From: Saururus chinensis | Taxonomy: Eukaryota; Streptophyta; Magnoliopsida; Piperales; Saururaceae | Direction: 5' to 3' | Assembly: GCA_035235625.1 (NCBI GenBank) | Contig: CP141147.1 | Span: 30,548,756 to 30,612,755 of the forward strand | Length of the DNA stretch: 64,000 bases | In this document: in pieces, positions 19,675-64,000 of the stretch | Layout of the letters: each line of letters opens with the position of its first letter | Position numbering within the stretch: the first letter of the stretch is position 1 | Translations under genes and position numbers: made by a program | Notes under the pieces: model-generated | The model's input: only the letters and a program-made list of their open reading frames with translations | Database searches by the model: none | What the model was told of the DNA's origin: nothing

Positions 19675-21997
19675 TGAAACGACCCGACCCGAGCCGGGCC
19701 CACAAAATCACTGATAGGAATTTGAAATTTTCCTTAAGCCAGGAATCATCGTCTGTGTGCGAGAGGTACAACGTTCGTCTACGCACTACGGAGCTTTATG
19801 GCTTCCCCGTACGTAGACTTAGGTTGTAACGATCACATACACACAACGAAGCTTCATAGTTCGTCGTGTGTAAAACAGAATAAAACATATTATATATAAT
19901 AATTTGGATCGGGCCAACGTTGCCTTGCCGTTGGTTGCCTACGTACGTATTGGATATTATTCCAATACGATCGGATCCGAACGTAGTTCTGCCTAACGGC
20001 TACTACACACAACAAGCATCACAAAATCGTATAACATACGTATTTCCGAATATTTAATCGGAAGTATAAATCGGAGTCAGCGTAAGTTAATAAATTAACG
20101 GAATCATACGTCTCGCTCTACCATAGAGCGGGATTAAAATCACATACACATATCTCGCTCCATTACTGAATCGAGACTGAGCACAACAACCAGCTCGCTC
20201 TATCACTGAGCCGAGACCGGACACACACACACACACACGTCTTGCTCTACCCTAGAGCAAGACATCACACTTCACAGCCTATAAGCGTACATCATAGCAT
20301 ATAAGCTCACATCATGGCATAGCACACATCATGGCATAGCACACATCATGATATAACACACATCATGGCATATAAACACGTAACACGGCATAGCACGCAT
20401 CATGGCATGACACACATCATGATATAACACACATCATGGCATATAAACACGTAACACGGCATAACACGCATCATGGCATAGCACACATCATGATATAACA
20501 CACATCATGGCATATAAACACGTAACACGGCATAGCACGCATCATGGCATGACACACATCATGATATAACACACATCATGGCGTATAAACACGTAACACG
20601 GCATAGCACGCATCATGGCATGACACACATCATGATATAACACACATCATGGCATATAAACACGTAACACGGCATAGCACGCATCATGGCATGACACACA
20701 TCATGGCATAATTAAGACGGGAGATCAGAAATGCTTACTCCCCTCATGTCTTGCGAGGTAGTAGAATTCGGAGTTGCTCGTATGAGCATCCTCCCCTTCA
20801 GATCCGAAGATATAAAAGAAGCTTCCTCTAGTCTCCATACGTTCTTCGTCTTGTGTCGAAAGATTACGTATAACGTCTTTCCTCGTAGGAGACTCTTCTC
20901 GTTTTCTGTGCTATGAGCGGTGGACAGAACCTCCCATACTCTGGATTACTTCTCTTGATGTAGCCCGACAACTTTGGACAGAACCCTGTCTTGCTCTAGG
21001 CCCTTACTTCTTGTTCGGTGCTCGAAGATAACGGGCGGAACCTCTCCTTGTCTTGAGGCATTTCCTCCTTATACGGTTGCCAAATTAAAGAACGGACCTT
21101 TCTATCGTGTAGAACATACTCGATTTAGTCAAGAACGCCTCTTGGATGGACTAAATCGGAGTTAGGATGCTTAAGAACGGGGAGAAAGAAGTTTGTCGAT
21201 GCTCGGGCAGAACCTCTCCTTGTCTCGAGGCATTTCTTCCTTATACGGACTCCGAATCGAAGAAAGGACCATTCCATCGCGTAGAGCACACTCAATTTAG
21301 TAGGAAACGGGTCTTGAACGGCCTTAATCGGCCTCAGAACGGTCGTAAAGCAGGGCAAGAAGTTCTGACTGAAAATTGGAACGAAATGGGGTTTATAAAG
21401 ACCCCCGAGCCGCCGAAACTGCGGCACCGCGCCGCCAAAACCGGCGGCGCCCGCAGAAAATGCGCGCGGCTCGCGCCCGCGCGTTCCGGCTGGAATCATG
21501 TCGCACAGGAATCCGCGGTCCCGCGCGGGCGCGCATCGCGGTGAACGTGGCGCTGTCATACGCGCCATGTGGCCGGCCATGCGCAGCGTGTGCCAATCGC
21601 GCGCCGCCCGCGCCGGCTCACCCATTTTCCATTTTCTTATTATTATTTTTTAAATACTTATCTACTTCAAACGCGCGTATCTCCCCACCCCGGAATCATA
21701 TTCGCACGTTCTAGGTACCGTTGGACTCGTATCGACGAGCTCTTCAATACAAACCCACTTAAAGTAGCAAATCACACTATTTCTAAGTGGGTCCCGCCTA
21801 TTTTCTACACTTGTCGAGGTCATAACTTCCGGTCCCGACCTCCGTTTCGCTCGTTCTTCGAATCGTTACGCTCGTTTCTTTGAGCTCAACTTATATACAG
21901 AGGTTTCATCCTCTGAAATCCTCTAAAATTCATCACAAAATTATCCAATTAGGCCTAACCCTTGAGGTTAGACGTAATCGAAAAGCGAGTCGTTACA
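19675..21997. mobile_element. Solo LTR, 2323 bp, with 5-bp target duplication
   Basis: The segment begins TGAAACGACCCGACC and ends GCGAGTCGTTACA, so it has TG...CA ends and near-inverted tips. The five bases ATACC occur directly before (19670-19674) and after it (21998-22002), the classic integrase target duplication. There is no primer-binding site, gag or pol at either side, so this is a solo LTR, the usual product of recombination between two LTRs. Its style is that of Gypsy LTRs. Orientation is uncertain: TGTAACGACTCGC on the minus strand is the more usual LTR start. The interior has a 71-bp tandem array and a CpG-rich pocket. It sits inside older repeat DNA. Confidence 0.85.
20310..20716. 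repeat. 71-bp tandem array in the solo LTR
   Basis: The word TAACACGG recurs at 20381, 20452, 20523, 20594 and 20665, exactly 71 bases apart. Each unit is made of shorter CATCATGGCAT-type words with CACACATCATGATATAAC between. Units are almost identical, so the array is young or homogenised. The sequence before it (from about 20260) has the same short words in looser order. Confidence 0.9.
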
Positions 21998-31135: not shown

Positions 31136-32212
31136 AGTCACCTTTTTATTATATCTACTTCATAAATGAAAGAAAGAAATAATGGCTACAACTAGCCCAA
31201 GCTTAAATTCAACTCAAAGGTAACTTCTTTCTTTTTCTTTTCTCTTCTTTTTCTGCGTTATGAGAGAAGGCTTCCTTATGGGGACAGAATTAGATATAGA
31301 CTAGAATATACAAAATGCTTGTTATAAATAAATATATAAAAATTTGTGGGTGGCCTACTAAGGACCAATTATAATGCAACTTAATAGTGATCACAAACAT
31401 AAGATACAATTTTATTAGACTTCCTCTTTCCCGTGTTAATAGCTCTATTTTATTCTTTTAAAGGATGAAGAGTCTACTATCCTCTATCTTAGCTTGCCTA
31501 CCCGGCCTACGCAGAGTCGGTAGATATCTACTGTCTAAATATAAATAGAAGGTGGATATTTACCCACACTACAATAAAATATAATATTAGCAACGCATTT
31601 ATTAGCGATGCTTAGATAAGCATCACTAAAAATAATTATTGGTGATGCTTAGTTAAGCTTCGCTAATACTAATCATATTATATTAACGATGCTTTATTGT
31701 AAGCGTCGCTAATAGTGCCCCTATGTACAATGTTTTATACAACTGTCGCTAAAAGATATATATTTTAAATAAAAAAATATGACTATTAGCGACGCTTTTC
31801 GTAAGCGTCGCTAATAGCTTTCTTAATAGCGACGCTTATACGAAAGCATCGCTAATAATGCTACTATGTCACTAATAGTTATAATTTAAAAATAAAAAAA
31901 TTAAACTATTAACGACGCTTTTACATAAGCATTGCAAATACCATTTCTAATAGTGACATTTGTTGACATACGTCTCTAATAGCTTTATTAATTAATTTTA
32001 TTTAATAAATAAATATTAAAAAATTATAATAAACTTCCTAAATATAATATATTTTATTCAAAATTTACTATTTATATATACAATAAATAAATATTAAATT
32101 TTTAATAAAAACTAGTGTTAATAATAGATTAAATTTTCACTATTTATATATAATATATTTTATTTATTAAATTTTATTATTAATTTTAAAAGATAATTTA
32201 CACTAAAAGAAA

Positions 32213-32897
32213 GAGTGAAGAGAGTGCATGGAGAGAAAGAGTGAGAGTGAGAGTGAGGAGAGAGAGGGATTGAAGAGAGAGAGTGAGAGATGAAGGAGAG
32301 AGAGACAGGGGAGGGGAGAGAGAGAGAGGAAAGAGAGACGGAGGAGATAGAGGAATAAGGCGGAGAGAGAGGAAGAGGAGAGGGAGAGAGAGGTGAGGGA
32401 AGAGAGAGGAGAGAGAGAGGGGGGGGGGGAAGGAAGAGAGAGGAATTTTATTTTAATTTTTAAAATTTTTTTTATTAATTTTTTATTTTTAAAATAAAAT
32501 TAAAATTAAAATAAATACTAATAGCAACGTATGGTTTTATGCGTCGCTATTAGTATATGTATTAGCGATATATAAAATTATACATCGCTAATAAGGGACA
32601 TATTAGAGATGTATAATTTTATATGTCACTAATATTATTTATTTTAATTATTTTTTATTTTTTAAAATTAAATTTAAAGAATGAAAAATCTTAAAAAATT
32701 AAAATTAGAGGAGAGATAATGTGCAGGGAGAGAGGAGAGGGAAGAGAGAGAAAGGAGAGGGAAGAGAGAGGGGAGGGAAGAGAGAGAGGAATAAGACGGA
32801 GAGAGGAAGAGGAGAGAGATAGAGAGAGGAGAGGAAGAGAGAGAGGAGAGGGAGAGAGAGAGAGAGAGGAAGAGAGAAAGGAGAGGGAGAGAGAGAG

Positions 32898-32928
<31 letters not shown>

Positions 32929-34480
32929 AGAGAGAAGGGAGAAGAGAGGAGAAAGAGAGGAGAGGGAGAGAAGAGGGAGGAGAGAGATAGAGAGAGGAGA
33001 GAGAGAAGGGAGAAGAGAGGAGAAAGAGAGGAGAGGGAGGAGAGAGATAGAGAGAGGAGAGAGAGGGAAAGAGATGAGAGAGGGAGAAGAGAGAATAGAG
33101 GGAGAGTAATTTTTTTAATTTTGTTTAAATAAAAAATAAAAATATAATTTTTTTAATTCTTTTTTATTTTTGAAAATTAATTTTAATGAATACAAATCTT
33201 AAAAATTTGAAATTAGAGGAGAGAGAGAGAGAGGAGAGGGATAAGAGAGGGAGAGTAATTTTTAAATTTTTATTTATTTATTTATTTATTTAAAATTTAA
33301 TTAAAAAATAAAAAAAGTATTAGCGACATATAGGTACGTCGCTAATACCTTTGAGTAGTAGCGATGTATATGCATACACGTCACTAATACCCTTAAGTAT
33401 TAGCGACGTATAAGCCTATACGTCACTAATACCCTTAGTAGTAGCGACATATATACATATGTTTCGCTAATACAATTTCATTTGTTATTTTTTATTAATT
33501 TTTAAATAAAAAATATAAAATAGAGAAAGGAGAGAGGGAGATAGAGAGAGGGTAGAGAGAGAAGGGAGAGAGATAGAGGGGAGAGAGAAGGGTGAGAGAA
33601 AGAGAGAGAAGAGGGTGGAGGGAGGGAGGAGAGAGAGAGAGGGTAGAGAAAAGAGAGAGAGAGAGAGAGAGGGTAGAGAGAGAAGAGAGAGAGAGGAGAG
33701 AGAGAGGGGAGAGAGAAGGGAGAGAGGGAGGAGAGAAGGGAGAGAGGGAGGAGAGAGAGATGAGAGAGAGAGAGAAGAGAGGGAGAAGAGAGGGAGATAA
33801 TTTTTTTAATTTTTATATTTTATTTGTTTATTTAAAATTTGATTAAAACAATAAAAAAAGGTATTAGTGATGTATAGGCCTATACGTCGCCAATACCTTT
33901 GCGTATTAGCGACGTATATGCATATACGTCACTAATACCCTTGAGTAGTAGCGACGTATATACCTATATGTCACTAATATATTTTTATTTATTATTTTCA
34001 TTAATTTTTAAATAAAAAATATAAAATAGAGATAGGGGAAGAGAGAGAGGGAGATAGAGAGAAAGGGTAGAGAGAGAACGGTGAGAGAGAGAAGAGGGTG
34101 GAGGGAAGGAGGAGAGAGACGATAGAGAGAGAGGAGAGAGAGAGAGGGTAGAGAGGAGAGAGAGGGTAGAGAGAGAAGGGATAGGGAGAGGAGAGAGAGA
34201 AAAGGGAGAGATGGAGGAGAGAGAGAGGGTAGAGAGAGAAGAGACAGAGAGAGGGTAGAGAGAGAAGGGTGAGAGAGAAAGAGGAGAGAGAGAGAAGAGG
34301 GTGGAGGGAGGGAAGAGAGGGGGAGAGAGAGAGGGAGAGAGAGAAGGGAGAGAGGGAGGAGAGAGAGGAGATAGGAAGTGAGAGAGGAGAGAGAGAGGAT
34401 AGGGAAGAGAGAGAGAGATAGGAGATATGTTGAGAGAGGAGAGGGAAGAGAGAGATGGGGGAAGAGAGAGAGGGGAGGGA
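32213..34480. repeat. GA-rich blocks inside the CACTA element
   Basis: Five purine tracts on the plus strand (about 32213-32443, 32700-33115, 33205-33260, 33520-33800, 34025-34480) consist of irregular GAGAGA with GGGA interruptions. Each is bordered by A/T runs and by an inverted pair of the subterminal motif, so block plus border forms a repeated module. Such tracts can form triplex or bind GAGA-binding (BBR/BPC) proteins in plants; that they do so here is not shown. Confidence 0.85.
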
Positions 34481-34639
34481 TATGATTTTTTTAAAAAAAA
34501 TAGGAGTATTAGCGATGTATATCTTTTTACGTCACTAATATTATGTTGTATTAGCGACATATAAGTTTATATGGCACTAATGTTTGCTGTATTAGCGATA
34601 TATAATTTATACGTCGCTAATATAACTTTTTTTAAAAAA

Positions 34640-34865
34640 AACATACCGTAGGCAAAATTCCGCCCACGCGGGGAAATTTTGCATGTGAATGAAATTTCCC
34701 CACGTGGCCAAAATTTCTCCCACTGCCTATAAAGAACTCCGGCCCCCTCCCCCATTTTCCCCCCCTCCTCCTTGGCATCTCACCCCCGCCGCCCACGGCA
34801 CCCTGTCCCCCACCCCCTCCATTGCCCCCTCCTTCCTCTTTCGCTCTGCCCCGTTGCTATTTAAT
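34640..34865. other. Foreign-looking segment inside the CACTA element
   Basis: This segment differs sharply from the GA and TA-rich parts. It holds an inverted pair, GGGGAAATTT against AAATTTCCCC (about 34670-34701), then CCTATAAAGAAC (TATA-like), then a C-rich, G-poor tract to 34850. It looks like a short promoter-plus-leader picked up by the element. The donor gene is not recognisable and this is inference. Confidence 0.4.
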
Positions 34866-35759
34866 TTTTTTTAAAAAAAATTAATTTCTAGTGATGCTTA
34901 AATATTAAAAAGGGTCATTATTTGATTTTAAAAAAAAATTAATTACTAGCTACGCTTAAAAATTGTGGCTATTTATTTTTTTAAATAATTATTAGCGATG
35001 CTTTATATATATGTCGCTAATAAGTTATTTTTTAATTCTTTTAAAAAATATTTTTTTCTATTAGCGATGTATACATAAGTGTTATTAATAATTATTTATT
35101 AGCGACGTATACATAAGCATCATTAATAATTCTTTATTAGCGATGTTTATAATATACGTTGCTAATAATTTATTTTAAAAAAATTATTTTTCTTTTAGTA
35201 GCGATGCATAACTATACGTCGCTAATACACCTTATTAGCAATGCTTTTAGTTATATGTCACAAATTGGTAATAGCGACTGCAGTATTTTTTACGATGTTT
35301 ATTATATATCGATAGTAGTCATTTTTGTTGTAGTGCCACTATGTTAAGGGGGTCGGCTGGCTAAAAGAAAGGGTATGAGACTTCTCAACCTTGTTTAAAA
35401 TAAACTAATTTTAATATATTTTGAAAAAAAATAGAATTATTAAAATGAAATGGGTACTAAAGCCATGATTTGAGTAGAAGTTGCAATAAAACCACTATTG
35501 CAAAAGTGGACAATGGACCCAAATGCCATTGACCAATGTCTCCAAATTGGGGGTCTATCAAACGAGAACTGGATACACAAAAGTACTTCCACCAAGTATT
35601 GGAAGGCAACATTGGCCAAGGTGGGGCCTGGAAGGAGTAGCCATGGACGTTCCTTCAAGCCACACATATGACATGAACTAATTCATGAAACTTAACCAAC
35701 ATATTCTCGGCTGCATGTCTAGGACCATTACTTTGGAAGCCGAGGTCATGAACCCTCAC

Positions 35760-56710: not shown

Positions 56711-57792
56711 AATGCGCCAAAAGGGGATGCAACGCACACCTAAAAAATTTTCGGTTTTTTTTTATACCTAACCCCACTCGATTTGAATTGGGTTTGATAT
56801 TTTTAGTTATACGGTAAATTGAGCGGGTTTGGCTTTTAAACATTTATCGCCAAGTTGAGTTGCGTTTAGGTTTTACTTGACCCGACCCAAAACCGACTTG
56901 AGTAGGGTATAACGTTTTTTTATAAAGAGGTAGGTCATAATCAATATTTTTATTTTTGCTAGAAACTATATATTATTTTTATTATATACATGATTTATGT
57001 GAAAAATCTTGAGTCAATAAGATAAGTAGATTTTATTATGAATGTGTCTATATGGAAAACCCCAAAGTACTATGTAAGTGAGGAAATTATGAGTATTTTC
57101 CTATTTCTCCTGCATCCCATTTACCCCATGAAATTTCCCATCTCATTACCCAATTAAACCCATAATAAAATAGTGTCTCTCCTCCCCTGTATCTCATTTC
57201 GCGACTTCAAAGCTTCATAGAGGTGTTTTTCCTCCCCTAATCTCATTCTAAAGTGCTAGCAACATATTTGTGGAGGATTTGTTAGAACGAATCCAGGTCA
57301 AACCCAAAAAAATCAATGCCACTTTAAAGATTTTTTGCTTAGAAAAACCATAATGCTTTGAAGATTTTGATTACATGTGCCCAAAAAAACCCAAAAAACT
57401 TTGAAAGTTTTTGTATGCGTTATTTGCATCATTAATTAGGTATTCGCATTCACCTTTTTTCTCTTGTTGTTTGTAGAAAGTTTTTAGCTTTTATAGAAAT
57501 GGGTGTGGTCATAGTATTTATTCTTTAGTTCTTGAGTTTTAGTCACATTCTTGATCAAATGTTAATGCTCACAATATTTTTTTATGACCAATAAGAAACT
57601 CAGTGTAATTTATCTTATGGAACTTAAGTTCTTTGTCTTTTTTTTTCTATCTTGTATCCTATGATGTGTAATCTTATAAATTTTATTAAGTACCGGGTCC
57701 TTCAATTTTTGATGTAAAATTTTAGCTCATAAAGCATTTGTGGAATAATAAGAGACTCTACAGTATCATGAGCATGATAATTTCAACGTAAG
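56711..57792. other. Gene-free AT-rich stretch
   Basis: Contains CCCGACCC- and GGGTTTGG-like words around 56770-56910, as also seen at 63670-63790, common in decayed plant LTR sequence. Nothing else is supported. Confidence 0.4.
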
Positions 57793-58412
57793 AACTTTTG
57801 GAATGGCATTCACGGTGGGCACCCCTCGACAAAGTATGAAGTTTTATATGATGGACGCCCATCGTAAGGGAGTAAGGCCTTTGCATTACATAGGATAACT
57901 TCTGGAATGACTCTCACGATGGGCACCCTCAACAACGTATAAAGTTATATACAGGCGATGCCCACCGCGAGGAAGTAAGGCCTCTATGTGAACCACAAAG
58001 AAACTTCTAGACTATAGCTCATAGTAGGCGCCCCCCGATAATGTATGAACTTATATATGGGGGGTGCCCATTGGAGGGGGTAAGGTCTCTATGTAGGCCA
58101 TGAGAGTACTTCTGAAACAGCTTTTACGGTGGGTACCTTGACAAAGTATGAAGTTATATATGGTGAGTGCCCACTGTAAAGGAGTAAAGCCTCTATGAAT
58201 CACTAGAAAACTTCTAAAATTACACTCACATAGGCACCCCACCCCCCAACAAAATATAAATTTATATACGATGGGTGCCACTGTGAGGGTGTAAGACCTC
58301 TACACATTGCACAAAATAACTTCTAAAATGGCTCTTATGATGCCCCCCTCCTACAATAATATATAAAGTTATATAAGGGGGTACCCACAACAAAAGAATA
58401 AGGACTCTACAG
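57793..58412. repeat. Six-unit hairpin satellite, about 105 bp per unit
   Basis: Units start with (A/T)ACTTCT at about 57793, 57897, 58002, 58107, 58209 and 58318 (spacing 102-109). Each has CTCACGGTGGGCACC-like sequence, a spacer with AAAGTATGAAGTTATATA, then GGGTGCCCACCGTGAGG-like sequence and AGTAAGGCCTCTATG. The two flanking blocks are inverted, so nearly every unit can fold into a stem with a loop of 35-40 bases. Units differ at many positions, so the array is old. The sixth unit pairs poorly. No open frame of note crosses it; the 76-codon minus-strand frame is the repeat itself. Confidence 0.85.
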
Positions 58413-59445
58413 GGGTAAACAATGAGTAAGAGGGGGGTTTAAAAAGTAAAAATAAAATAAATTTTTAGTTTAGTGTATATTAAGAAAATTTTGTTAAATG
58501 CAATAGGGTAAAAGAGATAGGGGGTATTAAAGGGTTTTCCAAGGTATTATAGCCGCATTTTTTTATTATATGATGAGATTTATCTTTTATAAAATACAAA
58601 AGATATGTTAGAAGGAACTTAAACTTGTTTGATTCAGCAAGTTCCAGTAAGATAAAAACCCTATCCAACCCAACTTAAAATAGGTATAACTTGAATATTG
58701 ATAGGATTTTTCTAAATGATAATGGGTTTAAATTTACCAAAACTTGATCCGGTGGCAACGGTATCCGCAATGCCCATTCACTTTGTTTTCCTTTCTTTGG
58801 TCAACCCAAGATGGGCTACAGGTTGGGCCATAATAGGTTCGTTTAGAGTGTCCTAGACTGGTTCTAGTCAGACAAAACCAAGCCCGGTTGGATTTTATGC
58901 AGGCCTCTTGGCACTCGGACAGTATAATTATTACAATCATCCTGAAGTAATAAAGCAACTAAAAATTACCAACTTCAGCTACCATGGTTTCTCTCATACG
59001 TGTTATTCATCTTGCTCTCAGCTCTCGACATTAAGCATCCGTAGACTTGAAGATATATACGAGTACGAGTACATGTAATGAAAAATCTATGTAGAAGAAA
59101 AATTATATGTGAGTTAATACCTAAATAGAATTTTTTTATATTACCTGACTAAAGAACCTAATATTCCATATTCCTTGAATTTTAAACATAAATGTTATAT
59201 TACTTATTTATAGATGAAACTGCATTTAAGTTTTAAATAAATCCACTACTTATACATATTAAAATAAATAAATATTAGAATAGTATGGTGTCATTCTAGT
59301 GGGGAGGATTCATCAGCGGTAGTAGATAGTCACCGGTGGGAAGTGACATGTGATGACTCACCAGTGAGTGTTGTTCTTCAATAAAAACTCATTTTTTTAC
59401 TCCATAAGTTGTTTAGGGCTCCAAATGATTCATTTCGACATAATT
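58413..59445. other. Gene-free stretch before the Gypsy LTR
   Basis: AT-rich sequence with short frames only (minus 58668-58480 and 58958-58734). Nothing further is supported. Confidence 0.45.
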
Positions 59446-62400
59446 TGTAAGGACCCTTATTTCTAAATCGGTTTTGGTTTTCTTTAATTATTAATTATCG
59501 TGAGATTTACGCGTTTTCTGATCTTATTCGATGATTTCGTAAATAAATAGTGTTTGTGATGGTTTTAACCAAAATTAACTTCAATATTAGTGGTTTTAAG
59601 TAATTTTAAAATAAATATAAATTTTTGGGATTTTTTGGAATTTTTACTATTTTCCCAAAAATTAGGGTTTTGGCGAGACCCCTGTGGGCCCCACTGTCGA
59701 AAATTTTACTATTGTGTCAAATAAACTTAGACATCTACCTAAGGTTATACAAAAATTTTTAGAATTTTATTAGGCTTAATTAGTACTTAAATTTGTAAAA
59801 TATTCATTTTTAGCCTACTTTTCCTATTTACACCCCAAAACTTACCCATGCATACCCCAACCCTTACTATAAAAGGGCAGACCTGAGCCATTTTCATTTT
59901 TGGGAATAGGCTAAGGAATGAGGGCTGGCCTAATCCCCACTTAGGCTCGAATTAGAAGCCAATTAAGGTAAGCTTACTTTAATTAAGCATAATCCATGGT
60001 TTTCTTCTTAATCTCTTCTAAATCTACCCTTTCCCCCTTGTTTCAATTCATTTTTAGACCTCAAAAGCTATTGATTTGTGTTTTACTACAAACCCTAATA
60101 TTCAAATTTTAATTTTTACTACCAACAAGCCCTAGATCTAAGATTTAATTAGGGATTTCTTGGGTAAATCGATTTCTATTAGGGTTTAATTCAAACTTAT
60201 TGTGTTTTCAAGGATTTCAAGAAGGATGACTCTTCAATCCGAGCTTAATCAAGTGCTGAGGTAATGGGTCTTCAAAATCTCTGTTTATCCATGGTAAAAC
60301 TCTTCATTTTTGGCTTATTTCGAAATGAGTTGCTTGATTTAGTGTGTTAATGGTAAGATTAGAAAATAGAATTATTTAATCCCGATTTCTTAGGGTTTTG
60401 CATTATTATGATATGGTTTGATGTTTTGGAAGTAAAGAAGGACTTTTGATGATGATTAGGGTGTTAGATGTGGATTTGGAGTGTTATCAATGGTGTTTCG
60501 GTTTGGATTTGCGAAAGGAAGAAGATGGACTGTTCTGCCTTGTTGGCGTTCGAACGACAACATTGCCGGAACGACACTTTTCCAGTTCAGCCGATTGAAC
60601 GGCCTGCTGGGCATTCGAATGACATAACTATGAATTTCAAATTTTTACGTTTAACCGATCGAACAGCCTGAAGGGCGTTCGAACGGCTACACAACAGATT
60701 GGTTTTCCAATGCATGATGTTTATTTTGATAATTCCACTTTAGCTTGCCAATTTCATATGAATGTGGTGTGTTTTAAGCTATGCTATATTACTGGAAAGG
60801 CATGCTATTGAGGTTATGGAATTGAGATATATGCTTAAAAATTTGTGGAATGACTTATGTTTGTGGCATGATGTTGGAATCGTTATCTTAAAATTATGAA
60901 TGGTTGATTCCCTTTAGTTAAGCATATTTTCAGTAGGACTACAACCTATTATTGGACTGATTTGTCATGATAGATTGTGGTTAGTTGTGTGTGGATGTTG
61001 GTGAATGTCATGACTCAAGGATGAAATGAATGATCTTATATGTGTTTAGCCTTTGTGGTCGAGATTTGAATTGGGATACGATTTTAACGATTCTTCTTCT
61101 ATGATTTCCGCTGGAATTTATGTTTAGATGGAAATTCACATGTGTAGTGTGGTAGTGAGTCTAATTCCAAGCATGTTGGCATGCATTATATGAAATGCTT
61201 CGACTAGTTACACACACACATGTGGGGGTTTAATGATGATGATGTTGAAGCTTGATATTGTGATTATAAATGATGCATTAGGGGCTGATGAAAGCACTTA
61301 TCATGGATTAGGATTCATGTATGCTTTGCCCATGTATGTACCATGCTGCATGCATCATGAACATGGATTTCCAATTGAGGCTTTATTGAGGTTAATCGAA
61401 TTTGACCGATTGGATGAAATGTGGTGAAATTGTGTGCCAGATTGATCGGTCGTGGATTAATCGAAAGTTGATTGGTCCGAAAGGACATGTTTTGATTTGA
61501 AGTTCCTGGGTGGAACGAGTGCACTCCCTGGGTTGAGTCTTGTTAAATGGAATGATGTGGGGACGAGTTGTGTACTTGTCTTGCGGATTGTGAGAATGTT
61601 ATTATATGTGTCATCTGGACCCTGAGAATCCAGTGTAGTATGTCGTGTGCACCCCACTACCATGTGTTCTAGGGTTCTATGTGTGAGAACTCGGGCTCTT
61701 CCCTCCACAGGAGATGTCCCTGGGCGAACACCCCTGCTCTAGATTCTATGTGTGAGAATGGGACATCCTTGGCCAGGATCGTCCAGGGCGAGCAGTATTA
61801 GGGGTTGACAACCCCAATCTTTCTTTAATTCTTGTGTAGAATTTTGGACCATGACACGCCTTCGTGGCCTTGTCTATGCTCCCGTCTGTGTGACATTAAT
61901 GTGTGATTACTCCTTGATGGAGGTTGTGATGATACAATGCATGATGAAATATGTATGTTAGCGATACATTCATGTAGGTTGTGATGATATAATGCATAAT
62001 GAAATATGTATGTTAGAGATACATTCATGCAGGTTGATTATGATATAATGCATGTGGGAATATGTATGTTAGAGATACATCCATGCAGGTTGATTATGAT
62101 ATAATGCACGTGGGAATATATATGTTAGAGATACATTTATGCAGTTTGATTTTGATATAATGCATGTGGGAATATGTATGTTAGAGATACATCCATGCAG
62201 ATTGTTATGATATAATGCATGTTGGAATGTGTATATTGGAGATACATCCATGCAAGTTGATTTTACACCATGATGCAGTGTTAGGTGATATGTATTGTGT
62301 GATCAGAAAATGATGCATCATGTTAATCTTTGATCTAAACGACTATATTGCTATGTTATTGTATTTTCAATGTTGCTAGTGATATTAAAAACCATTGTTG

Positions 62401-62891
62401 AGTTTGTTAAACTCACCCCTCTTTCTTGTGTTTTGATTTGGGGCTGCGTGGTGTGACACACAGACAAACAAGATCTCCTCTTTGACGAAAGGTCGGAGAT
62501 GGCATGGATGTGATCGTGGAGATCTTTGTGTGGTTTATTTTCCTTAGTTATGTTGTTATTTGGAACCTTTGTGTAGGGTTCTTGTTTTGGATTTATGTCA
62601 CATTTTACAATTGTGATGCTTATGACCTATTTTGAGCCGGTGTGGGCTTTACTTAAACTAAGCTTGTGTGTTTGAGATTGTTGTTTACTTTGTGATAAGC
62701 AACACTTTTCTTTCCTTCTTATTTACTCTTGCTCAAAAGATTGTGCGTACTCCGTAATTTCTGTTAATCGCCCGTGGTTAGGGTTAAGTCTTCCACTAGA
62801 TCGTTTCTCAATTTTCCCTTCATCGCCCCCGCACGCTTGACCAGCCCTTGGACCGGGTTCGGCTCGAGTCGGGCATCGCCGGGGCGTGACA
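59446..62891 (+). mobile_element. Gypsy-type 5' LTR, 3446 bp
   Basis: Starts TGTAAGGACCC and ends GGGGCGTGACA, with TG...CA ends typical of Gypsy elements. A primer-binding site follows 7 bases after the LTR. A TATA box (TATAAAAG, 59868-59875) sits about 420 bp in and is a plausible start for element RNA. A 55-56-bp tandem array lies at 61921-62258. Short frames inside are not genes. The matching 3' LTR is not in the window, and the inner part stops soon after gag begins, so the target duplication could not be tested. Confidence 0.8.
61921..62258 (+). repeat. 55-56-bp tandem array in the Gypsy LTR
   Basis: About six units start at 61921, 61976, 62031, 62087, 62143 and 62199. Each has GATATAATGCATG, AATATGTATGTTAGAGATAC and ATCCATGCAGGTTG. 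The solo LTR at 19675-21997 has a different array (71 bp) made of similar ATGATATAAC/CATCATG words in a comparable part of the LTR. Confidence 0.9.
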
Positions 62892-62898
62892 AAGTTTT

Positions 62899-62910
62899 TG
62901 GTATCGGAGC
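62899..62910 (+). other. Primer-binding site, initiator tRNA-Met
   Basis: TGGTATCGGAGC differs by one base from TGGTATCAGAGC, the usual complement of the 3' end of plant initiator tRNA-Met. It lies 7 bases after the LTR end and fixes the element as plus-oriented. Confidence 0.85.
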
Positions 62911-63043
62911 ACATCTTTGTCCAAGAGTAAATAGGGTTTGTGTGACAAGTCTTGCTTGTTTGCTTGTTTGTGTGTTTTCTGATTGTTTGGCTGTGTGCTT
63001 TCGTGTTATTAGGTTGTACGATTTATGTCTGGTCGTTGTGTAG

Positions 63044-63405
63044 ATAGCTGGTCCTAATCATGCAGGCGCTAATAACCATCGCGGTGCTCGTGACCCAAGG
63101 GTGGACGATGTGTTGACTTCTATTGAAGGGTTGACACAGGTGTTCCAGGCTAAGCACGCGAGTGGTAGCAGTTTTGAGTCTCTTTCACTCGAGGGATTCA
63201 AGAAGCTTAATCCCCCTAGCTTCAAGGGTGGATTTGATACTTCTGTGGCGGATAATTGGAGGCTTCATATGGAGAAGATTGCTCGGACGAGGAGAAGACT
63301 AGACTTGCAGTCTTCACGTTCGAGGGTGAAGCTCAGAGGTGGTGGTTATCGATGGAGCATCAGAGGTTCCATGGCCGAGCGGACATTCCTTGACTTGACC
63401 TCAAC
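63044..63405 (+). pseudogene. Gypsy gag N-terminal fragment, broken
   Basis: The frame from 63044 begins with ATA where the gag start codon is expected (directly before codons for AGPNHAGANN). It then reads a typical plant Gypsy gag opening, with GFKKLNPPSFKGGFDTSVA and a following W..HMEKI stretch. A frame break of one base near 63285 shifts the reading; the next frame carries the expected GEAQRWW motif and meets a stop near 63400. Element similarity ends there, so pol and the 3' LTR are absent from this window. The product cannot be functional. Confidence 0.75.
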
Positions 63406-64000
63406 CCTATTATTTAATGATGTAAGATAGAGAGATTCAAAAGAAATTTTATGATAATTATTTTTTAGATTTTTTTATATTTAATAGTAAGTTAATATTT
63501 TTATGGGATTTTTATAGTTTTGGATGTGTATCTAATAAATGTTGAAATGCTCTCTCTCCAAACTCTCACTTTCTCAAATAATATGGAAAATGTTTAACAT
63601 TTATTTATAATGTGGCAATGTATATCTAAAAATTCTTTATATTTGGCCCATGTAAAGATAATGTATAAAAAGTAGGGTTAGGGTTTGGGTTTTCAACGCG
63701 ATTAACAAATAAGGTCAGGTCAAGACCCGACCAAATTTAAGCGTATGTCAAGGCTAACCCGGCCCTATTTGGCCTAACCCAACCTGATTTCTAGCCCTAC
63801 TTAAAGGAAATGACTTAGGCCACATTTAGGGAAGAGTTTTGATGTTTTATTATAACAATGAGCTCAACGTAAGAAATGCATAGCAATCTTTGATATTTGA
63901 GATCGATGGTGCATATGCTAGCACTAATTTGCGTTAATATGTGCATTGTTGATCTTAAGGATGAAGAGTTTTTATGCGTTTTTTACATTAGGCTTATTGT
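63406..64000. other. Right end of the window, no gene
   Basis: AT-rich sequence after the truncated Gypsy element. 63899-63956 is a small foldback of the GAGATC-tip family listed separately. Nothing else is seen. Confidence 0.5.
63899..63956. mobile_element. Small foldback element, GAGATC-tip family, copy 2
   Basis: AGATCGATGGTGCATATGC faces GTGCATTGTTGATCT, and the centre has GCTAGCACTAATTTGCG. It shares the tips and the TAGCACTA core with 8674-8766 but lacks the extra right-hand part. Confidence 0.5.

Follow-up and report, generated by a model that had tools for sequence, protein, structure and literature searches.

Mutator-like elements (MULEs) with tandem terminal repeats are the subject of Ferguson and Jiang (2012), and the VANDAL elements also belong to the Mutator superfamily. 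According to excerpts of PMC3310237, a target duplication of 9–11 bp sets Mutator-like elements apart from other DNA transposons, their terminal inverted repeats are typically 100–500 bp long, and in MULEs with tandem terminal repeats the tandem duplications spread along with the element. Excerpts of PMC5735166 and PMC10398659 describe VANC targets as tandem repeats in the non-coding parts of VANDAL elements and the target arrays as evolving synchronously. Tetris of Drosophila virilis, in the extract of PMC4079207, is a DNA transposon with satellite-like tandem repeats inside it; its ~220-bp repeats lie in the terminal inverted repeats and also form kilobase-size satellite-like arrays.

The locus analysed here lies in a 64,000-nucleotide stretch of Saururus chinensis DNA (the window) and is an array of six ~105-bp units, very probably a tandem repeat internal to an old Mutator-like transposon of the non-autonomous kind, an ancestral array that spread with its element and is now decaying neutrally without homogenisation. 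Plant non-autonomous MULEs are similar in having a 9-bp target duplication, terminal inverted repeats, many dispersed copies and no coding capacity seen, but the present element differs in its short terminal repeat (~44 bp, below the typical Mutator-like range) and in its internal array of hairpin-forming units. It shares with the excerpted MULEs with tandem terminal repeats (PMC3310237) a Mutator-like character and tandem duplications that travel with the element; those MULEs duplicate the terminal repeat itself, whereas here an internal unit is repeated, four to eight times in 35 of 40 places. The likeness to the VANC targets, as excerpted (PMC5735166, PMC10398659), lies in tandem repeats within the non-coding part of a Mutator-superfamily element; in contrast to VANDAL elements, no VANC-like gene was seen in the present element, its unit is a ~105-bp dyad and there was no within-copy homogenisation. 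The extract on Tetris (PMC4079207) likewise describes satellite-like repeats inside a DNA transposon, although the arrays studied here are short and internal. No title describing this transposon family was found in the part of the title listings covered.

The array occupied 57794–58418, each unit being anchored at ACTTYT. Units 1 to 6 measured 104, 105, 105, 102, 109 and 100 bp and were located on the forward strand at 57794–57897, 57898–58002, 58003–58107, 58108–58209, 58210–58318 and 58319–58418, respectively. Pairwise identities were 60–73 % and self-comparison of the array gave E values as low as 2e-28; the array was absent from the Tandem Repeats Finder list for the window. A sequence-only reading of the window had described six drifted units, spaced near 105 bp, with inverted blocks facing each other in units 1–5 and a hairpin in almost every unit. 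The units and the place of the array were borne out, although the whole feature is wider (57040–58560), and the facing blocks were confirmed as arms of 18 columns (18 bp) separated by 27–33 nt in the window units. These arms were found at 57807–57824 and 57853–57870 in unit 1, 57911–57927 and 57956–57973 in unit 2, 58016–58033 and 58062–58078 in unit 3, 58121–58137 and 58165–58182 in unit 4, and 58223–58239 and 58273–58289 in unit 5, with remnants at 58332–58348 and 58379–58396 in unit 6.

Stem-loop z-scores relative to shuffles were −2.2, −3.8, −3.8, −5.0, −3.7 and −1.0 for units 1 to 6 as plus-strand RNA, and −2.2, −5.4, −2.6, −1.8, −3.8 and −1.9 as minus-strand RNA. On these values the hairpin of unit 6 is largely lost and that of unit 1 is marginal, so that the hairpins proposed for nearly every unit were clear, as plus-strand RNA, in units 2–5. 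Folding of the unit stem-loops as DNA was weaker than as RNA, and the fold of the whole array was 3.9 (plus strand) and 3.7 (minus strand) standard deviations below shuffles (20 per strand). At its gathering threshold Rfam gave no match for the array; a single loose-threshold match within 56900–58700, to a snoRNA, was rejected (E 0.67, 23 bits against a cut-off of 50).

The carrier of the array is an element of 1,521 bp (57040–58560) lying between exact 9-bp direct repeats, TTTTATTAT, at 57031–57039 and 58561–58569, which were located by an anchored search of the window alone and later supported by the genome copies. The anchored search, which required inverted termini bordered by a 9-bp direct repeat, returned these positions with the termini AATGNGNCTATA and TGGAAAACCC; it was equalled by 12 of 1000 shuffles, which makes it only a lead since the test was devised once the candidate had been seen. 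With a looser joint test (inverted 10-mer plus 9-mer direct repeat) 86 of 2000 shuffles were as good, and a long local alignment of the two flanks was uninformative. To judge from where homology with the window stops, the genome copies support the ends first inferred from the window alone: where the left end is preserved, the limit on that side fell between 57016 and 57131, and on the right it fell between 58497 and 58570. Matches past 59,000 in four places (L016, L033, L040 and L041) belong to other repeats.

Within these borders, the left terminus (57040–57062, forward strand) is a terminal inverted repeat of ~44 bp in the family consensus, degraded in the window copy. It opens a conserved left end (57040–57172, forward strand), for which the equivalent stretch of L050 gave at least 40 genome matches. 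Next comes an internal, non-coding segment (57173–57793, forward strand) that the long form of the element has and the short form lacks, followed, beyond the array, by a conserved right end (58413–58560, forward strand; at least 42 genome matches with the equivalent stretch of L017), whose inverted repeat runs on the minus strand from 58560. The consensus termini, GAACGTGTCTATCTGCACCCCGAAAAACCCCTCAATACCCCATA on the left (from 30 ends) and GAACGCGGCTATATACACCCTGAAAAACCCCTCAGTACCCCGTA on the right (from 23 ends), were identical at 37 of 44 positions, with seven mismatches.

A fuzzy end search located both ends in sixteen places including the window, and 14 copies were compared for target duplications after L024 and L032, whose flanks are shared with L021, had been dropped; lengths of 7–11 bp were tried. 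A 9-bp duplication matching at eight or more bases was present in six of the 14 copies and in none of 182 cross pairings. It was exact in three (the window, L017 and L050) and matched at eight of nine bases in L030, L033 and L049; the remaining eight copies fell short of this, two of them (L012 and L029) at seven of nine bases and six at 0–6. Flank identity at length 9 was 0.627 for own flanks against 0.375 for cross pairings, and at length 7 it was 0.500 against 0.358, some excess at this length arising through overlap, whilst at lengths 8, 10 and 11 own identity was near the cross value. Going by the flanks and ends of the copies, the 9-bp duplications together with the inverted termini are the signature of a Mutator-like element.

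The genome that holds the window comprises 516 Mb in 11 contigs. The genome search proposed by the sequence-only reading revealed many dispersed copies of the unit, with at least 54 array matches on 10 of the 11 contigs among the matches listed; these counts are lower bounds, scoring having covered 40 of the 82 first-look candidates. With the left end of L050 as a query free of the array, 57 candidates, 40 of them scored, and at least 40 places were obtained, whilst the right-end query from L017 gave 68 candidates, of which 40 were scored, and at least 42 matches. Among the 40 left-end matches listed, 28 had at least one unit within 1.8 kb (nine of 18 newly read places and 19 of 22 others, the window included) and 12 had none within that distance; at L068 the units were mostly inverted. 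A profile detected 238 units in 40 places including the window, with two to 12 units per place, four to eight in 35 of the 40 and the maximum of 12 in L043. The label of satellite given by the reading is therefore inapt, the array being carried by dispersed copies of a transposon; likewise, the array proved to be an internal repeat of a DNA transposon and not of an LTR element, the outcome that the reading had set against its own idea.

When 5.5 kb was read at each of 39 places, both ends were matched in the right orientation in 16, the left end only in six and the right end only in seven; in L026 the right end was inverted, and neither end was matched in nine (L027, L034, L035, L038, L039, L042, L043, L044 and L045). 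Three forms were distinguished. The long form consists of the left end, a ~620-bp segment, the array and the right end (the window, L012, L029 and others), in the short form the left end joins the array directly (L017, L030, L033, L036, L046, L049, L050 and others), and the third form has another segment to the right of the array (L019, L022, L025, L027, L028, L034 and L044). The span between ends was 0.46–2.5 kb in the places measured, except for one 11-kb span with nested sequence. The element exists as multiple dispersed copies with different flanks, some places being segmental duplicates of one another.

Four places on contig 3 (L022, L025, L027 and L034) were clustered at 33.5–33.8 Mb and had long right flanks in common, which suggests a local segmental duplication, to go by the shared flanks; L019, on contig 7, had ~2.4 kb of this cluster flank in common with L025. 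A ~900-bp segment without a long open frame followed the array in the unlinked L028 (from 3125) and L044 (from 3101), and part of it recurred in L019 and the contig 3 cluster. A longer parent element may have had this segment as its interior. In L028, L044, L034 and L025, the frames inspected on the right side of the array were interrupted by stops throughout. In scans of viral contigs with four patterns, the first matched three loci, each with only 18–19 bases in common with the unit, and the other three gave no locus.

Several other repeats were seen in the window. The sequence from 59445, which begins TGTAAGGACC, is probably a long terminal repeat; sequence with the same start lies immediately, or almost immediately, to the left of the array in L016 and L041 in the opposite orientation and lies to its right in L040 in the same orientation. 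A gag-like open frame was noted by eye at 63044–63430, without a Pfam hit, and 59445–63430 resembles the 5' portion of a retrotransposon; inside it, a 56-bp tandem repeat of 6.2 copies (61917–62262) was found that also occurs in L035. In the stretch 31599–35335, motifs resembling TTAGCGACG / CGTCGCTAA recur in inverted orientation alongside purine-rich tracts, with a terminal CACTACAACAAAA (35323–35335, minus strand); these features suggest a CACTA transposon, and a CACTA-like end (CACTACAACAAAA) abuts the array in L027 and L034. A 71-bp minisatellite of 5.9 copies with 94 % matches, built of shorter ACATCATGGCAT-like pieces, was located at 20289–20705, and the open frames of the window included class-I tRNA ligase and Myb/SANT-like domains, as would be expected in a plant nuclear genome.

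The sequence-only reading had raised two explanations for the pairing that persists in spite of drift, namely that the fold matters or that both arms came from one ancestor. In the six window units, 78.4 % of 102 pair cells held standard pairs, a value reached in 142 of 500 shuffles of the 3' letters between units. Double changes occupied six cells where shuffling gave 3.6 on average (a count reached in 52 of 500 shuffles), the covariation score was reached by 33 of 500 shuffles, and swaps of whole arms among the six units paired as well as observed in fractions of 0.17–0.29. When neutral change was simulated at a single rate for each base, double changes had p ~0.03 and Watson–Crick pairing 0.05. 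Six units are too few to decide on maintenance of the fold.

Arms were then swapped among 207 of the 238 units, those with both arms, 31 with incomplete arms being dropped; they came from 40 places, a sample that is smaller than 40 independent copies because it includes duplicated places. Watson–Crick pairing was 0.619 for own arms, 0.620 for arms swapped within the same place, 0.616 for neighbours and 0.622 for other places. With G–U pairs included, own arms scored 0.747 against 0.753 and 0.754 for swapped arms on the plus strand, and 0.760 against 0.755 and 0.761 on the minus strand. The own-minus-swapped difference in Watson–Crick pairing had a mean per place of 0.0025 (standard error 0.0058), own pairing being higher in 19 of the 40 places. 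The compensatory changes by which the reading had proposed to check its idea showed no excess in the 207 units (113 double changes observed against 118.4 expected from independent columns); among single column pairs, 23/66 had 12 against 6.1 and 27/62 had four against 14.3. Since own-arm pairing equalled swapped-arm pairing and double changes were not in excess, nothing shows maintenance of the fold after insertion. The hint of double changes in six units was gone with 207 units, and the descent of both arms from one ancestor was the explanation supported. Independent decay of a unit's two arms means that the pairing still present descends from an ancestral inverted repeat that was nearly perfect.

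Units differed from the consensus by a mean of 20.0 %, and C>T plus G>A made up 57.6 % of 4,309 changes. The rates of these two changes were 0.314 in CG, 0.252 in CHG and 0.154 in CHH contexts, the order expected from decay of methylated cytosines. Differences at G/C sites amounted to 0.266 in the 5' arm and 0.211 in the 3' arm, the lowest value, compared with 0.271 before, 0.322 between and 0.257 after the arms; greater conservation of the arms than of other G/C sites was not clear. In a set of seven short and 12 long places chosen for comparison, units at the same position in different copies had a similarity of 0.74–0.77 against 0.68–0.71 for different units of one copy. Because same-position units are more alike across copies, the array predates the spread of the element and was not homogenised later. 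Nine position-wise consensus units (five long, four short) kept 12–16 of 18 Watson–Crick pairs, figures which are an upper estimate since the calling rule favoured C and G where both states were common and so leans towards C/G pairs. These inferred ancestral units folded at −28 to −47 kcal/mol, as strong hairpins, and the differences among them were, by eye, mostly one-sided.

Maintenance of the hairpins through a working fold, whether as a small-RNA precursor, a structured RNA or a cruciform, is extremely unlikely on these results. The better folding of several window units than of their shuffles, the six double-change cells with p ~0.03 in one neutral simulation and the strong hairpins of the ancestral units would all fit a working fold; the window hint was not significant under site-specific shuffles, however, 207 units from 40 places had no excess of pairing or of double changes, the ancestral unit types differ mostly on one side, and Rfam offered one match far below its threshold. 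An independent satellite or foldback element, later invaded by other transposons, is very improbable too. The nine places in which neither end was matched and the 12 units of L043 are what such an origin might leave, but both ends were matched in the window and in 16 of the 39 places, several of them with 9-bp duplications, and same-position units correspond between copies. Even among the end-less places, L042 and L045 keep the internal segment of the long form and L027, L034 and L044 the right segment of the third form. The arms of each window unit, 27–33 nt apart, are also unlike long foldback termini.

A former use of the array, by analogy with VANC, is unlikely but less so: its dyads could have served as clustered binding sites for a protein encoded by the element (a transposase accessory or anti-silencing, VANC-like factor), the array now being dead. 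The array is kept in both the long and the short form though the ~620-bp internal segment is missing from the latter, all nine inferred ancestral unit types keep 12–16 of their 18 pairs, and VANC targets, as excerpted above, are tandem repeats in non-coding parts too. Against this, no encoded protein was found, 12 of the 40 left ends listed had no nearby unit, and the excerpted VANC target arrays evolve synchronously (PMC5735166, PMC10398659), whereas the present units do not homogenise after insertion. The more specific proposal that the tandem dyads of the active element formed a putative docking array for an element-encoded DNA-binding factor, of which the present copies would be decayed remains, is distinctly unlikely; if true, a short-terminus Mutator-like lineage would have used hairpins as a platform of VANC-like or accessory-transposase type.

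Under the preferred reading, a neutrally decaying internal repeat of a non-autonomous Mutator-like transposon, the inverted repeat would first have arisen inside such an element and the unit would then have been amplified in tandem within the ancestral element. The element with its ready-made array would have been mobilised in trans by the transposase of a related element, the array presumably being carried along passively, and the inserted copies would decay under cytosine methylation or silencing. No transposase was found inside the element at 57040–58560. Around 87 element places, taken from the array, left-end and right-end match lists, the nearest MURA-type Mutator transposase domain (PF10551) was 36.9 kb away among the 150 that were scored of 2,831 candidates. 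The open frames of two longer end-to-end spans, of 5 kb (L051 with L014) and 11 kb (L052 with L053), inspected by eye and not with Pfam, included no obvious transposase. The latter span contained purine-rich low-complexity sequence, which suggests a nested insertion.

Surviving hairpins in old repeats need not be maintained, own and swapped pairing being within a percent of each other in 207 units, and the arm-swap test by which this was established is cheap and usable on other hairpin satellites. The transposon family is now defined by its ends and its target duplication, and it suggests where element proteins that target repeats might be sought in plants outside Arabidopsis.
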